This document shows, one piece after another, positions 6,154-22,037 of a DNA stretch of 44,286 nt (its first letter is position 1; each line of letters starts with the position of its first letter). The notes below the pieces were generated by a model. It was not told the DNA's origin. It saw only the letters and a list, made by a program, of their open reading frames with translations, and did not search any database. This DNA is from Verrucomicrobiales bacterium (GTDB lineage: Bacteria > Verrucomicrobiota > Verrucomicrobiia > Limisphaerales > Palsa-1400), in the NCBI GenBank assembly GCA_003140095.1, contig PLIU01000110.1, forward strand, positions 1 to 44,286, in the 5' to 3' direction. The translations under genes and the position numbers were made by a program.

Positions 6154-6282
6154 CGGAACAAAAGCCACCCTATCGATTTCACTATTTGCCTGCCAGAACA
6201 AACCAATCTCGAAACGGCTTTTGTCAGCCTTCCATCGAACAAAGGACTTGCAATGCCAATTTCTTTATGCAAGAATAATCTC

Positions 6283-6356
6283 GGCAATGGGGTTTGCCCG
6301 CTCGCCGTGAGGTGAGGAAACTGCCTGAGATATTTCAGAGCTGATGACCCCTACCG
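6283..6356 (+). ncRNA. Fluoride riboswitch (crcB motif)
   Basis: The segment matches the fluoride aptamer. GGCAATGGGGTTTGCC at 6283-6298 forms the first stem with the pseudoknot strand GGGG. A variable stem-loop follows, then AAACTGCC, a CTGA/TCAG hairpin and the conserved GCTGATGACCCCTACC at 6339-6354, whose CCCC pairs with GGGG. This is the arrangement of known crcB-motif RNAs. It precedes a crcB gene by 30 bases. No strong intrinsic terminator is visible; the ribosome site GGCAGGAG at 6371-6378 could pair with CTGCC at 6321-6325, suggesting translational control (inference). Confidence 0.88.
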
Positions 6357-6385
6357 AGACAGGTTGCATCGGCAGGAGTTTTTTT

Positions 6386-6784
6386 ATGCTCAATTATTTG
6401 TTTGTCGGTTTGGGCGGGGCTCTTGGAACCATGGGTCGATTTTGGTTAGGCGGCGTCATTTCGCGGCGCTTTGGTGAATCATTCCCTTTGGGCACGCTGG
6501 TCATCAATGTCACCGGCTCATTTGTCGTCGCTTTCTTCGCGACGATGACGGCGGCAGAAGGACGCTGGATGGTGCCGGCTCGGGAGCGTCTGTTTTTTAT
6601 GACCGGCATCTGCGGCGGTTACACCACTTTTTCCTCATTCAGTCTGCAAACACTTAACCTCGCTCTTGATGGCGAGTGGTTATACGCCGGGGCCAATGCC
6701 GTGCTTTCGCTGACGCTTTGTCTGCTGGCGGCTTGGCTCGGCTATTTCGCAGCCATGAGCTGGCGACGAACGAAAGGAATTTAA
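6386..6784 (+). CDS. crcB: Fluoride efflux channel CrcB/Fluc
   Basis: A 132-residue four-helix membrane channel that exports fluoride as a dual-topology dimer. Diagnostic motifs are GGALGTMGRFWLG in helix 1, PLGTLVINVTGSFVVAFF in helix 2 and the pore segment GICGGYTTFSSFS in helix 3, all intact. The ATG at 6386 is preferred because it follows AGGAG by a proper spacing and starts at the first helix; an upstream in-frame ATG at 6344 lies inside the riboswitch. Control by the riboswitch immediately upstream is near certain from the architecture. Confidence 0.93.
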   Translation: MLNYLFVGLGGALGTMGRFWLGGVISRRFGESFPLGTLVINVTGSFVVAFFATMTAAEGRWMVPARERLFFMTGICGGYTTFSSFSLQTLNLALDGEWLYAGANAVLSLTLCLLAAWLGYFAAMSWRRTKGI

Positions 6785-6843: not shown

Positions 6844-8247
6844 GTGCGCAAAACTAAAATTATCGCCACGCTTGGGCCCGCTACAGCTTCCGAAGAAATG
6901 ATCGCCCGGCTGGTTGAGGCCGGGGTCAATGTTTTTCGTTTGAATATGTCGCACGCGCCGCACGACTGGGTTCGACGAGTTGTCCGGGACATTCGCTCCG
7001 CCGCCGCCGCGCGGCAGCGATTTGTCGGAGTCATGCTCGATACACAAGGGCCGGCGATCCGCACGGGAGATCTGTCTGTGCCGCTGGATTTGCTGCCAGG
7101 TCAGAAGTTTACCCTGACCGTTCGCGGCGAGCGCAGCGAGGAAGAACGTTCGGTGGATGTCAATTACGAAAATTTTGTCAATGACATCCATGTCGGAGAC
7201 GTGGTGTTGATCGACAACGGCGCGATTGAAATGAAAGTTCTGGCCAAGAGCGGCAATAAAGTCCAATGCCAGATATTGACCGAAGGCAAACTCGGCAGCC
7301 GGCGGCATATCAACTTGCCGGGAGTCAGAGTCAGCCTTCCTGCTTTGACCAGCAAGGACATTGCGGATGTGCAGCTTGGGCTGGAGGTCGGTGTCGATTT
7401 TATCGCCCTCTCCTTTGTGCGGGAAGCTGCCGACATCCGGCAGTTGCGCGAACTTTTTCCGTCGGACAAACCCCATCCTCTGGTCGTGGCGAAAATCGAG
7501 GACCAGGAAGCGGTCCGCAATCTCGATCAAATCATTCAGGAGTCGGACGCCATCATGGTGGCGCGCGGCGATTTGGGCATCGAATTGCCGTATGAGGAAC
7601 TGCCAATCATTCAGCGACGGATTATCAAGATCTGCTTGCGCGTCGGACGTCCGGTGATTGTGGCTACGCACATGCTCGAGAGCATGATTGAATTGCCGTC
7701 CCCGACGCGGGCGGAAGTAACGGATGTGGCGAACGCCGTTTTTGAGCAGGCGGATGCTATTATGCTTAGCGGCGAAACCACGGTTGGCAAATACCCAATC
7801 AAGTGCGTCGAGGTATTTGATCGGATCGCGCGTCGAATTGAGCGCAGCGGCGGGGCCAATTATTCCGAGCAAGCGCAGCTTTCCAGCCATCGTCAGAAAT
7901 TGGTGAAGAGCGCCGTCGTCCTAGCCAATGAGCTGCGAGCCGAAGCAATCCTGGTTTTGGCGCGAAGCGGGAACTCGGCTCGGCACACGGCCTGGATGCG
8001 CCCCCGGTATTCACAGGTGTTTGCTCTGTGCGAACGCGAGCACGTGGCCGCAACTTTATCCCTCAATTGGGGTACGACAGCTTTTGTAGTCCCTTTCGAT
8101 TCAACTCAGCCACAAAACACCATTGAAACAGCCATCAAGACCTTGGTGGTACAAGGACATCTGCATCCAGCCAGCATTGTTGTGGTTGTTGGCTCCATTA
8201 TTGCCGTGGACAACACCATCGAGGCGGTGCAAATGCGGATCGTATGA
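6844..8247 (+). CDS. pyk: Pyruvate kinase
   Basis: A 467-residue glycolytic enzyme transferring phosphate from phosphoenolpyruvate to ADP. It begins with GTG after AAAGGATCC and reads RKTKIIATLGPAT, the standard N-terminus. The signature around the catalytic lysine (VVAKIEDQEAV), the metal-binding MVARGDLGIELP, the ATHMLESMI segment and the C-terminal regulatory domain are all present and the length is normal. In the nucleotide-side motif usually written DTKGPEIRT, this protein has DTQGPAIRT, so the lysine is replaced by glutamine. The gene starts 59 bases after crcB on the same strand; co-transcription is possible, and fluoride is known to inhibit glycolysis (at enolase), but no link is shown here. 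Confidence 0.93.
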   Translation: MRKTKIIATLGPATASEEMIARLVEAGVNVFRLNMSHAPHDWVRRVVRDIRSAAAARQRFVGVMLDTQGPAIRTGDLSVPLDLLPGQKFTLTVRGERSEEERSVDVNYENFVNDIHVGDVVLIDNGAIEMKVLAKSGNKVQCQILTEGKLGSRRHINLPGVRVSLPALTSKDIADVQLGLEVGVDFIALSFVREAADIRQLRELFPSDKPHPLVVAKIEDQEAVRNLDQIIQESDAIMVARGDLGIELPYEELPIIQRRIIKICLRVGRPVIVATHMLESMIELPSPTRAEVTDVANAVFEQADAIMLSGETTVGKYPIKCVEVFDRIARRIERSGGANYSEQAQLSSHRQKLVKSAVVLANELRAEAILVLARSGNSARHTAWMRPRYSQVFALCEREHVAATLSLNWGTTAFVVPFDSTQPQNTIETAIKTLVVQGHLHPASIVVVVGSIIAVDNTIEAVQMRIV

Positions 8248-8607
8248 GCTTTCCTTTCGTGCCTCGGAAAAAGGAAGCGGCGCAACTTCAGCGCTGGCTG
8301 GTACTCTCCACTAAGGATTCGACAGAAACGACGAGGCGTTGGAGAGCTGAAGCGTTTCGCCCGGTTGCCAAACAAAGTCAAATCCAGTCAAACCACAAAT
8401 AGAGGTTTGACAAGCAGTCGGCCAATATTATCGGTTGATACCTCGCTTCTCTCTTGACTCTAATTTCAGAATTCAGTTTGAATCATTGAGGCACAACGAT
8501 CAAAAGGGCTGTTTTCTCAGGGAGGTTATGAGTCATGAAAGAATGTTTTTGAGAAAAAATAGGCGTTCCATCATCGCCCAACATGGTCGTGGGCCGGAAG
8601 ATAAGCT
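8248..8607. other. Intergenic stretch with nested inverted repeat
   Basis: No gene is supported in these 360 bases. They hold an inverted repeat with outer arms CTTCAGC (8286-8292) and GCTGAAG (8346-8352) and inner arms CTCTCCA (8304-8310) and TGGAGAG (8340-8346). There is no T-run after it, so it is not a typical terminator. A copy of the TCAAACC repeat lies at 8376-8394. Confidence 0.4.
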
Positions 8608-9741: not shown

Positions 9742-9952
9742 ATGACCGCAAGTTGGAGCAGACCCTCCCGGCGCTCCGCGCCGTCGGCCAAATGCTGGCT
9801 CAATAGGTGGTCAGCAATTGCCGCTGGCTGTTGGACAGCCCTGGCAACAACAGCGGCCGCCTCAAAGGAACTATTTTTGCTTAACATCAACCAATCCGAA
9901 TATTAGAATTCCAGCCAAATCCACTCGGCCGCAAAATATTTTAAAATATTAC

Positions 9953-9982
9953 TTGCACGTAACCGCCAGCATGTGCTATACG
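9953..9982 (+). promoter_or_regulatory. Predicted promoter of a small RNA
   Basis: TTGCAC at 9953-9958 and TATACG at 9977-9982 are separated by 18 bases and preceded by an A/T-rich stretch that could serve as an UP element. The -10 is preceded by TGC. A strong intrinsic terminator lies about 230 bases downstream with no convincing protein frame between. Confidence 0.45.
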
Positions 9983-9987
9983 TCTAT

Positions 9988-10220
9988 ACGTTCGATGAAA
10001 ACTTGCTTAAACATATCAGCCACGAGTTGGCCGACGATGCCGGTCGCGAAAGCGACACGTCATAGCCAGGTCACCCAAGGCTATGTGTTTAGCCTTGGAC
10101 TATCCTTGGCATCTATCGGGAAACAGCCCGAAGGTAATTTGGATAGACATGGTGTAGGCAGGTAACGAATCGAAATAAAATTTCTTCACCCTGCTTACCG
10201 CGTGTAAGCAGGGTTTTTTG
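9988..10220 (+). ncRNA. Candidate structured small RNA, family unknown
   Basis: A promoter-like element and a strong terminator bracket ~230 bases rich in potential helices: GTCGC-GAAA-GCGAC at 10043-10056 (GNRA tetraloop); CATAGCC/GGCTATG at 10061-10085; CCAAGGCTA/TAGCCTTGG at 10075-10098; CTATCC (10100-10105) with GGATAG (10141-10146) enclosing CGGG-AAACAG-CCCG at 10117-10130. The second and third helices share GGCTA and cannot coexist, so the RNA could switch. I checked for signatures of tmRNA, RNase P RNA, SRP RNA and common riboswitches and saw none. A 56-codon frame starts at 9995 but resembles no protein I know. It could be a divergent 6S RNA, a mobile-element RNA or a new family. Confidence 0.45.
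10189..10220 (+). terminator. Intrinsic terminator
   Basis: CCCTGCTTA at 10189-10197 pairs perfectly with TAAGCAGGG at 10205-10213 (9 bp, loop CCGCGTG), followed at once by TTTTTTG. GGTAA at 10161-10165 could pair with TTACC of the left arm, a possible weak antiterminator. It ends the candidate small RNA. Confidence 0.8.
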
Positions 10221-10534
10221 TTTTCCCTGAACAGCATGAAAAGAAACGAGTAACGACCAATGATAGACAATCTGTGAACAAGAACAAAGCGACATCTTGA
10301 TGATGTCTTGTGGCGACAAATTGAATTTGGCGAGGACGAGCAGAGAAGCCTCACCGGTGGGGTGTGCCCACTACCAAAAGACAGAGTCACGAAGACGCAC
10401 GAAACGAATTTTAGATTTACATATTAAGGGCTTCGCAGGAGGTGTGCCCCTAAACACCGAAACAGCCGCCGTGAAACCGCGGGTTGGGATCGAATAGATC
10501 GCCAAGAGGTGTTTGTTCTTTGTTGAAATGGCAT

Positions 10535-10602
10535 GGGCCGGGAGCAGTCTAAATGCAGAATGCAGAATGCACAATGCATTGAGCGGCATTGCTTCCCGGC
10601 CC
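10535..10602. repeat. Long-looped inverted repeat carrying four heptad repeats
   Basis: GGGCCGGGA at 10535-10543 and TCCCGGCCC at 10594-10602 are perfect 9-base arms. The loop holds four consecutive 7-base units at 554-581 of the 10-kb block: TGCAGAA, TGCAGAA, TGCACAA, TGCATTG. A TTTTT run follows on the + side. It may be a small non-coding repeat element. The region 10221-10641 otherwise shows no gene. Confidence 0.5.
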
Positions 10603-13947: not shown

Positions 13948-14022
13948 GGACTCGTAGCTCAATCAGCAGAGCGCCCCGTTGTCTGCGGGAGGGTTGAGGG
14001 TGCAACTCCTTCGGGTCCGCCA
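13948..14022 (+). tRNA. tRNA-Asp(GTC), divergent
   Basis: Acceptor GGACTCG (13948-13954) pairs with CGGGTCC (14012-14018), followed by G and an encoded CCA. D-arm GCTC...GAGC, anticodon loop TTGTCTG with GTC, T-loop TGCAACT. The T-stem has only about four pairs if the acceptor has seven. The D-loop AATCAGCA lacks the usual GG and the T-loop has G in place of the second T. The fold is otherwise convincing. First of a tight cluster. Confidence 0.75.
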
Positions 14023-14029
14023 CTTTTTA

Positions 14030-14117
14030 CGGAATGTAGCTCAGTCTTTAGAGCAATCTTTAGAGCACCCGACTTGGGACCGGGAGGCCGCAGGTGAAAA
14101 TCATGCCATTCCGACCA
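14030..14117 (+). tRNA. tRNA-Pro(TGG) with duplicated D-arm segment
   Basis: Acceptor CGGAATG pairs perfectly with CATTCCG, discriminator A, encoded CCA. Anticodon loop CTTGGGA reads TGG. The D-arm GCTC-AGTCTTTA-GAGC is followed by a second copy AATCTTTAGAGC (14055-14066), a 12-base duplication that enlarges the arm. The T-arm GCAGG-TGAAAAT-CATGC has one mismatch and lacks TTC. The duplication could prevent function. Confidence 0.65.
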
Positions 14118-14124
14118 TTTCTAC

Positions 14125-14200
14125 GCTGGCGTGGCCGAACATATCAGGCATCCGTCTTCTAAGCGGATTCATGCAGGTGAGAATCCTGCCGGCAGCGCCA
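14125..14200 (+). tRNA. tRNA-Arg(TCT), divergent loops
   Basis: Acceptor GCTGGCG with CGGCAGC (one G-G mismatch), G discriminator, encoded CCA. Anticodon arm TCCGT-CTTCTAA-GCGGA gives TCT. T-arm GCAGG-TGAGAAT-CCTGC is fully paired, but the loop is TGA rather than TTC. The D-loop GAACATATCA has no GG. Seven bases after the Pro gene. Confidence 0.75.
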
Positions 14201-14201
14201 T

Positions 14202-14276
14202 TGCCAGGTGGTGTCAAAGTAGCACGACGGTTTGTTAAGCCGCGCGGTGTTGGTGCGAGTCCAACCCTGGCAGCCA
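14202..14276 (+). tRNA. tRNA-Asn(GTT), divergent loops
   Basis: Acceptor TGCCAGG with CCTGGCA is perfect, with G discriminator and encoded CCA. Anticodon loop TTGTTAA reads GTT. T-arm GTTGG-TGCGAGT-CCAAC is fully paired. The D-loop TCAAAGTAG lacks GG. It starts one base after the Arg gene ends, so the cluster must be cut from one precursor. Confidence 0.78.
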
Positions 14277-14283
14277 ATTTCAC

Positions 14284-14406
14284 GGAAGGCAGGCAGGTGC
14301 TTGCGCACTGGCACCGAGCTGGCTGCTGCCTGTCCCGAAAACAGGATCGGCTCAAACCCGAGGTCGGAGCGTTACCCGGTGGCCGTCTGCAAAGACACTT
14401 CCGCCA
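14284..14406 (+). tRNA. tRNA-Ser(CGA)-like class II element, degenerate
   Basis: GGAAG (14284-14288) pairs with CTTCC (14398-14402), then G and an encoded CCA. An arm CCTGT-CCCGAAA-ACAGG (14329-14345) would place CGA as anticodon, with C where T33 is invariant. TCGG-CTCAAAC-CCGA follows as a long variable arm. At 123 bases it is ~30 too long, and the D- and T-arms are unclear. It sits seven bases after tRNA-Asn, in step with the cluster spacing, so a decayed or unusual tRNA is more likely than chance. Confidence 0.4.
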
Positions 14407-14435: not shown

Positions 14436-14591
14436 ATGAAGCCCGTTCTCCGTTATCAAAGCCAATTGCTCTTTCGTAAGAGCTACAAACCACGTCGCGT
14501 CATTCGAATCCGGCCCACTGGAAAGCTGAATTTCGTATTCCGCTCTGCGAAACGGTTCGGCGTGAAACCACAACTGACCACCGTCTCGTAG
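14436..14591 (+). CDS. Small basic protein, unknown
   Basis: A 51-residue frame starting 29 bases after the tRNA cluster, preceded by AAAGGAA at a normal ribosome-binding distance. The product is strongly basic (many Arg and Lys, few acidic residues) and could bind nucleic acid. I recognise no family. It ends before the convergent acetyltransferase gene. Its position right behind the tRNAs suggests it shares their transcript or mobile origin, but the frame is short and could be chance. Confidence 0.4.
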   Translation: MKPVLRYQSQLLFRKSYKPRRVIRIRPTGKLNFVFRSAKRFGVKPQLTTVS

Positions 14592-19127: not shown

Positions 19128-19199
19128 GTTTAACGGGGCTGCCTAAACAAAGAACAAACACCGGCCCCGACAAGCACGGTGAGTGTTTGCGAGCATTTT

Positions 19200-19739
19200 A
19201 TGAATGACATATTGAACAAGTCGATGGTGCTGGTGCTCAACCGCAACTGGCAGGCCGTCAATGTCCGCACGCCGCAAGAGGCCTTCTGCATAATGGCGAC
19301 GGACGTGGCGACCGGTCTGGAATTCGAAGTCGAACACCACATCCGTCCCGTCTCCTGGGGCGAGGGGATCACGCTGCCTATTCGTCCGCAGGACAACGCG
19401 GTGCAGACCGTGCGCGGTCCGATTCGCGTGCCGACGGTGATCGCGGCGGTGAATTACGTCAAGGTGCCCAAAAAGCGCCCGAAGCTGTGCGCCCGCGCCA
19501 TCTGCGAGCGCGACCGCAACCGCTGCCAATACATCGGTCGCGTGCTTCGCCCGGACGAGGGCAGCCTCGACCACGTCCTGCCTCGCTCGCGTGGCGGCAA
19601 GAACGCCTGGGAGAACCTGGTTTGGGCGGGCAAAGACGTGAACGCTCGCAAGGGCAACCGCCTGCCACACGAGGCCGGCCTGAAGTTGCTTACTGCGCCG
19701 CGTGCGCCGAAGGAACTGCCGGCATCGGCGTTGATTTGA
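19200..19739 (+). CDS. HNH endonuclease-family protein, C-terminus cut by a nonsense codon
   Basis: A 179-residue protein of the stand-alone HNH type. The HNH core is SLDHVLPRSRGGKNAWENLVWAGKDVNARKGNR. The preceding zinc-knuckle usually reads RDRxxCQYCG; here it is RDRNRCQYIG, so one cysteine is lost. After ALI the frame has TGA, but the next codons read NAHGIPEWKLF, the usual C-terminal end of this family (from memory), so CGA-to-TGA is a likely nonsense change and the natural end lies a few codons beyond 19770. The start at 19200 (MNDILNKSMVLVLNRNW) is preferred over 19179. Nuclease activity is uncertain given both changes. Confidence 0.7.
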   Translation: MNDILNKSMVLVLNRNWQAVNVRTPQEAFCIMATDVATGLEFEVEHHIRPVSWGEGITLPIRPQDNAVQTVRGPIRVPTVIAAVNYVKVPKKRPKLCARAICERDRNRCQYIGRVLRPDEGSLDHVLPRSRGGKNAWENLVWAGKDVNARKGNRLPHEAGLKLLTAPRAPKELPASALI

Positions 19740-21984: not shown

Positions 21985-22037
21985 TGGCGCATCCTGCAGG
22001 ACTTGAACCTGCAACCTTCCAATCTGAAGCTCTGCGC
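21985..22037 (-). tRNA. tRNA 3' remnant (possible attachment site)
   Basis: On the minus strand this ends in a canonical 3' half: T-arm GCAGG-TTCAAGT-CCTGC, acceptor strand AGGATGC, G discriminator and CCA. A shortened anticodon arm (CTTC-AGATTG-GAAG, loop of six) precedes it. The matching 5' acceptor GCATCCT and a D-arm are absent. Unlike the 14-kb cluster, the T-loop is standard, so this comes from an ordinary chromosomal tRNA (Arg-like by ending). Such 3' copies are typical of integration sites of mobile elements. Confidence 0.5.

Follow-up and report, generated by a model that had tools for sequence, protein, structure and literature searches.

Four tRNA genes with unusual loops

What are the four closely spaced tRNA genes on a Verrucomicrobiales contig whose loops lack the nucleotides expected at the elbow? 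The window, by which we mean the whole stretch of 44,286 nucleotides analysed here (PLIU01000110.1), is contig C446 of a genome of 7.8 Mb in 515 contigs. In normal tRNAs the elbow is held by the contact between the GG of the D-loop and the TC of the T-loop, and G18-U55 and G19-C56 are among the most conserved of all tRNA contacts. Re-checking confirmed the Asp, Pro, Arg and Asn coordinates given in the first-pass annotation (Table 1), as well as the spacings of 7, 7 and 1 bases, the anticodons and the encoded CCA ends. The loops had also been read correctly: none of the four genes has G18G19, and all four have G55, in T-loops TGCAACT, TGAAAAT, TGAGAAT and TGCGAGT. Arg and Asn each score 45 bits against the Rfam tRNA model.

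Table 1. Predicted island features in the window.
Feature	Position	Strand	Basis or remark
Upstream leader block: promoter-like TTGCAC-17-CTATAC (by eye), ~200 nt conserved, first terminator-like hairpin	9929..10424	+	Locus comparison
Conserved leader RNA, immediately upstream of the array where copies are intact	10425..10546	+	Alignment A3
tRNA-Asp(GTC), G55 type	13948..14022	+	T-stem one base short
tRNA-Pro(TGG), G55 type	14030..14117	+	12-nt D-arm duplication and two stem changes
tRNA-Arg(TCT), G55 type	14125..14200	+	G5-G68 mismatch
tRNA-Asn(GTT), G55 type	14202..14276	+	A27-C43 mismatch
51-aa basic protein gene	14436..14591	+	tblastn map; many copies of the island also have it before Ile/Phe
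HNH protein gene, closes the island in intact copies	19179..19739	+	Pfam HNH_4, HNH_5

The stems had been described as staying paired. For the window copy this is wrong, as each of the four genes is flawed relative to intact homologues in the same genome. The Asp T-stem has shrunk from CCCTT to CCTT, Pro has altered bases in its anticodon stem and T stem besides the duplication in its D-arm, and the mismatches of Arg and Asn are new. ARAGORN called three of the four genes, missing Pro and placing the Asp register off by one base. The window copy is probably dead. The earlier argument against random decay survives in part: the G55 loops are inherited and the set is coherent, but the window genes form a degraded fragment with decay on top. 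Judged against the intact copies, the window holds a decaying fragment (leader, Asp-Pro-Arg-Asn, 51-aa gene and HNH gene) of a chromosomal island of one Verrucomicrobia order. Between its island parts lie genes for a transposase and an MFS transporter, as well as for an M50 peptidase and for proteins of the HEAT-repeat and hexapeptide-transferase types.

Three other features of the window were noted. The tRNA-like stretch at 21985-22036, previously described as a host remnant, does have an ordinary TTCAAGT T-loop and a CCA end, but it corresponds to no more than the 3′ half of a minus-strand tRNA, and no 5′ half is recognisable. It is possibly an integration-site remnant. REP-like short imperfect palindromes occur at ~14297-14320 and ~14379-14399, beside the island tRNA genes. 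A fluoride riboswitch (6274-6360; Rfam, 39.6 bits) is located upstream of an ORF (6344-6784, +) that reads as a CrcB/Fluc-like fluoride channel.

A conserved island with a full tRNA set

G55-type arrays are present on six more contigs of the same genome, and intact versions longer than the window copy occur among them. We wrote our own cloverleaf scanner because ARAGORN misses part of the arrays. Among 69 array tRNAs scored in this genome, 67 have G55, the exceptions being an element with a TTA anticodon and one Met-CAT. Longer intact versions were also found in at least 12 relatives, with conserved order, all 20 amino acids and an initiator-like tRNA. The arrays of relatives share one order, which up to Rsr reads leader, Gly, (Trp), Ala, Met, (Tyr), Asp, Pro, Arg, Asn, Ser, 51-aa gene, Ile, Phe, RtcB, Glu, Arg, Thr, His, SEC-C protein and Rsr. 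After Rsr follow Cys, Gly, Lys, Arg, Leu, Ile, Arg, Gly, Val, Glu, Thr, Lys, Gln, Val, Gln and HNH. Trp, Tyr and further Leu and Ser genes were placed by inspection and pattern. Single copies lack some members, and in some RtcB follows the HNH gene. The tRNAs are densely packed, with 15 in ~2.8 kb at locus L033 and 28 in ~11.8 kb at L074; the window fragment retains only four.

A conserved, selected second tRNA set almost certainly exists. The first-pass annotation had proposed a coherent, specialised set of tRNA-array type, possibly stress-related, and this part is strongly backed by 362 G55 tRNAs, the fixed order, coverage of all amino acids and the presence of RNA-repair genes. What did not stand was the intactness of the window genes and the loss of both elbow partners.

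Several island copies contain further elements. At L031, short REP-like imperfect palindromes (such as GGTGCTTGCGCACC...CCACC) lie in or beside Gly-GCC (6957-7047), Leu-CAA (7979-8069) and Ile-TAT (8205-8312), and such insertions apparently break several tRNA genes of this copy. Near the Rsr position there are tRNA-like RNAs with an ordinary TTC (L033 458-533, L034 8994-9070, L074 8755-8830 and 9005-9085), and YrlA matches lie close by, with T-arm, acceptor and D-arm in permuted order. Two of the tRNA-like RNAs have a TTA anticodon, which is absent from both of those at L074. We considered an ochre-suppressor tRNA as decoder, given the two copies with this anticodon, and rejected it: because the L074 homologue has another loop, the T-loop is TTC and Y-RNA matches are near, the TTA element is better described as a tRNA-like RNA. 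Another element with a TTC T-loop lies between Gly-TCC and Lys-CTT (L073 12556-12646, with homologues at L074 and L031). The L073 element has a weak tRNA-Sec match (32.7 bits, below the gathering score).

The elbow appears to be rebuilt

We tested co-variation in 362 distinct G55 tRNAs from loci of this and related genomes, with T-loops shuffled among the tRNAs in 10,000 trials as the null. In 316 of the 362, A occupies a strict D-loop position and the next base is complementary to base 56, against a shuffled mean of 250 and maximum of 267; these and the following shuffle values are not exact probabilities, because relatedness is ignored. Where base 56 is other than C (n=56), 30 tRNAs match and 16.3 are expected (maximum 28). 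Where bases 19 and 56 are complementary, the pair is G-C, U-A or C-G. Switches within an isoacceptor depend less on relatedness. In Arg-TCT, A-G accompanies C56 in 3/3 and A-C accompanies G56 in 8/8, and A-T occurs with A56 in some but not in all; Pro has UU with A56 or G56 and otherwise AG with C56. The same holds for other tertiary positions: pair 54-58 is U-A, A-U, G-G or C-C in 323/362, compared with 203 expected and a shuffled maximum of 224. For pair 8-14, the combinations U-A and A-U account for 278/362, compared with 243 expected and a maximum of 261.

The claim that both elbow partners were lost is therefore wrong. The contact is rebuilt, with A18 facing G55 and base 19 complementary to base 56. 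From its position, we infer that A18 contacts G55. Because of the co-variation, the elbow should be under selection, and the plain reading of the sequences is that these tRNAs would adopt a functional, selected L-shape with rewired tertiary pairs.

Further positions that are nearly invariant in tRNAs are less strictly kept here, with C33 in 64/362 and A8 in 79/362. C33 instead of the near-universal U33 occurs in Ala-TGC, Glu-TTC, Val-TAC, Gly-GCC and His, and other members of the same isoacceptors have U33.

The host's ordinary tRNAs do not share the odd loops. In the comparison with the genome's standard tRNAs, the ordinary ones among the best 30 loci all have TTC and the D-loop GG; over all loci, canonical tRNAs have the D-loop GG in 49/50 and U54-A58 in 50/50. 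Many amino-acid specificities of the island are duplicated by ordinary copies in the same genome, so that the island tRNAs are redundant isoacceptors.

Aminoacylation identity elements are mostly kept. G3-U70 is present in 25/26 Ala tRNAs, U73 in 14/14 Cys, G73 in all Asp and Asn, C73 in 10/11 His, C1-G72 in all Pro, A73 in all Leu and U1-A72 in 17/19 Gln. The Met-CAT tRNAs mostly have a 1-72 mismatch and are initiator-like. Base 73 of Gly and Phe often deviates. On the whole, this pattern suggests a translation-like set.

Leader RNA and island protein genes

The block upstream of the window leader resembles the blocks that precede the first tRNA at other loci, with 92% identity in L035 and 73-78% in L073, L074 and L075. 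Its first hairpin and T-run (~10193-10219) are also found in several array loci. A conserved stretch of ~200 nt (~9990-10219, with homologues in L031, L035, L073, L074 and L075) has no Rfam match and may be a separate small RNA. The leader itself is represented by 29 distinct sequences/loci with a mean column identity of 86% in the alignment. In a hand-drawn structure there is one helix with double changes in three pairs, which is modest evidence; RNAalifold found no covarying pairs in the leader, and the fold is doubtful. A terminator-like hairpin follows the leader in the island. The window leader has no match to an Rfam family, and an insertion splits its terminator hairpin.

The 51-aa protein has no match in Pfam or NCBIfam. 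The HNH gene probably starts at the ATG at 19200, and its family was found in 11 of the array-bearing genomes compared. Between Phe and Glu, many copies encode an RtcB-family ligase (PF01139; TIGR03073, 418 bits), a gene that is absent from the window fragment. The Rsr/Ro60 protein has TROVE and Ro60 vWA domains and matches NF041674 at 491 bits, below the model cut-off. RtcB and Rsr occur in many but not all copies, and many contigs end within the island. Near the Rsr position, Rfam searches returned two Deinococcus Y RNA matches, one of 46 bits (E 4e-5) and one of 45 bits (E 7e-5), as well as YrlA (E ~1e-3), all below gathering score. Neither RtcA nor RtcR was among the protein families conserved inside the arrays, the island has no conserved transferase family, and a GGQ motif scan recognised no PrfH partner. 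A 264-aa protein family (L075 8192-8986, L078 and L092) is encoded near the SEC-C and Rsr genes in some islands and has no match in Pfam or NCBIfam.

Distribution and genomic setting

In a collection covering 84,980 species, an exact Ala tRNA probe matched 21 contigs. Almost all carry labels of Verrucomicrobia groups (Pedosphaera, Limisphaerales, subdivision 3); two are labelled Akkermansia and one Proteobacteria. An island fragment lies on a contig labelled Proteobacteria bacterium WB4_2_1501 (L107, RFSE01000027.1), reflecting misbinning or transfer. Spread was measured with an Ala D-arm/anticodon pattern. Allowing up to two mismatches, it matched 37/320 genomes of the order and 25/118 genera, which is an undercount, as G001, G042, G054 and G032 have arrays that it does not match. 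With one mismatch, only the source genome was matched among 388 of the phylum, a sample in which just two genomes do not come from other orders. A covariance model built on the G55 set (R1) was tried as a measure of spread and rejected: it matched 58/58 relatives, but ordinary tRNAs also score high.

The suggestion of a phage or plasmid location was not supported. Three probes, the Ala tRNA included, had no match in IMG/VR. Housekeeping genes of chromosomal type make up most of the examined flanks, with aroA, cmk and an acyltransferase at L073, signal peptidase II and thiG at L079, and also housekeeping genes at L075. On the other side, the spread is patchy and there is one weak integrase match, near the L078 copy. 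As far as flanks and spread indicate, the island is chromosomal and common to many uncultured Verrucomicrobia. We found no description of it in the literature searched, which omits most subscription papers and bioRxiv preprints.

Possible function of the island

We infer that the island functions as a regulated stand-by (back-up) tRNA set for tRNA or RNA damage, a reading that we credit about as readily as we doubt it. The leader would hold the island off through early termination until stress. The G55 tRNAs would then be produced, receive their amino acids from the normal synthetases and serve in translation on the ribosome, and their altered elbow would spare them attack or handling given to ordinary tRNAs; having no U55, they have no pseudouridine 55. 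RtcB and Rsr would repair or clear damaged tRNAs. Precedents that may be relevant are the stress-induced trn operon of Anabaena and the rsr-yrl-rtcBA operon, which responds to tRNA fragments. Several points count against the stand-by reading. As the anticodons are ordinary, a nuclease reading only the anticodon loop would still cut the G55 tRNAs. Many of these tRNAs lack other universal features, and RtcB and Rsr are not in every copy.

It is also possible, unlikely but far from negligible, that the island is a domesticated phage- or plasmid-type array that a mobile element uses for counter-defence or to supply codons and that was passed between chromosomes, its elbow reflecting long separate evolution and having no special role. 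Relatives of the HNH protein are encoded next to tRNA arrays in mycobacterial plasmids and in phage Tunturi_5, phage Mx1 unites TROVE, HNH and tRNAs, and jumbo phages carry tRNAs, RtcB and TROVE (PMC7824862). The patchy spread within the order, the several copies per genome and the integrase match near L078 would fit such an origin. The empty IMG/VR searches and the housekeeping flanks do not, and the arrays of these relatives are canonical in the elbow. In the island, the co-variation speaks for selection on the elbow.

The first-pass annotation had also offered decoy tRNAs, and Rsr and Y-RNA-like RNAs inside the island could be taken to mean that the G55 tRNAs are tRNA-like scaffolds that act outside translation by soaking up tRNA-cutting nucleases or binding Rsr. 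For the tRNA-like domain of YrlA, competitive inhibition of an anticodon nuclease has been proposed (PMC7790460). A decoy would have no need of full amino-acid coverage, initiator-like Met, discriminator and 1-72/3-70 elements or an encoded CCA, and with all of these kept we regard this role as improbable.

Non-proteinogenic tRNAs for cell-wall synthesis, of the Staphylococcus type, are a still poorer fit. The S. aureus tRNA-Gly likewise replaces G18G19 (PMC4052509), but its weak EF-Tu pairs are not enriched in the G55 set (A49-U65 in 21/362 and A51-U63 in 64/362) over canonical tRNAs (5/50 and 10/50), and we dropped the idea for this reason. A full set with an initiator-like tRNA would be unexpected under it, as would the lack of a conserved transferase family in the island. 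Pseudogenes, that is, old tRNA duplications whose loops drifted, are scarcely credible: damage to all four window genes and the short repeats inserted in several tRNA genes of L031 fit drift, but in many other copies the stems are intact, with compensatory changes, the gene order is conserved and the partner genes are open, and because of the co-variation this reading is refuted for the family and holds only for the window copy.

Returning to the stand-by set, we tentatively propose, while leaning slightly against it, that the order keeps a complete, regulated, parallel and translation-competent tRNA set, with A18 and G55 and a free choice of the 19-56 pair, that is switched on when ordinary tRNAs are attacked. 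If true, this would be a natural alternative, for all amino acids, to the near-universal elbow of G18-pseudouridine 55 and G19-C56. With several hundred natural tRNAs in which the elbow was replaced in a coordinated way, one can test directly what purpose the elbow and pseudouridine 55 serve, and which toxins, RNases and modification enzymes recognise them. The island unites three topics usually kept apart, namely tRNA arrays, RtcB ligation and Ro60/Y RNA. For engineers, it is a source of structurally distinct tRNAs for all 20 amino acids. Annotation tools overlook part of such tRNA sets.

Comparison with known systems

The S. aureus non-proteinogenic tRNA-Gly, in which G18G19 is replaced, belongs to one isoacceptor family used for cell-wall synthesis (PMC4052509) and has weak EF-Tu pairs, whereas the island encodes a complete set in which such pairs are not enriched.

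Mycobacterial tRNA arrays on chromosomes, plasmids and phages are dense (2-9 tRNAs per kb), contain redundant isoacceptors and usually have an HNH gene as companion (PMC5966550, PMC12803027). The island is likewise dense, redundant and associated with HNH, and relatives of its HNH protein are encoded in those plasmids. However, the mycobacterial arrays have GG/TTC elbows and belong mainly to mobile elements, whereas the island is G55 throughout and chromosomal, with a leader RNA, RtcB and Rsr. The plasmid arrays of Curtobacterium and Rossellomorea also have ordinary elbows, and almost all tRNAs in the plasmid and phage arrays read have U55, compared with G55 in the 362 island tRNAs.

Jumbo phages combine tRNAs, RtcB and TROVE (PMC7824862). 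In phage Tunturi_5 (L120) the HNH relative has an array of tRNA genes and an annotated tRNA ligase as neighbours, and in phage Mx1 (L123) HNH, tRNAs and a TROVE protein occur together. Like the island, these phages bring tRNAs, RNA ligase, TROVE and HNH into one region; unlike it, nearly all their elbows are ordinary and there is no such leader RNA.

The Salmonella rsr-yrl-rtcBA operon, which is activated by tRNA fragments (PMC7790460), also places RtcB, Rsr/Ro60 and Y RNAs together. It has no tRNA set, and in the island no conserved RtcA or RtcR family was seen.

The trn operon of Anabaena sp. PCC 7120 comprises 26 genes on a megaplasmid, is regulated by TrcR and is silent until induced by translational stress (PMC10272220). 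It resembles the island as a redundant tRNA operon beside the housekeeping set. It differs in its megaplasmid location and TrcR control, whereas the island is chromosomal and is preceded by a leader with terminator-like hairpins.
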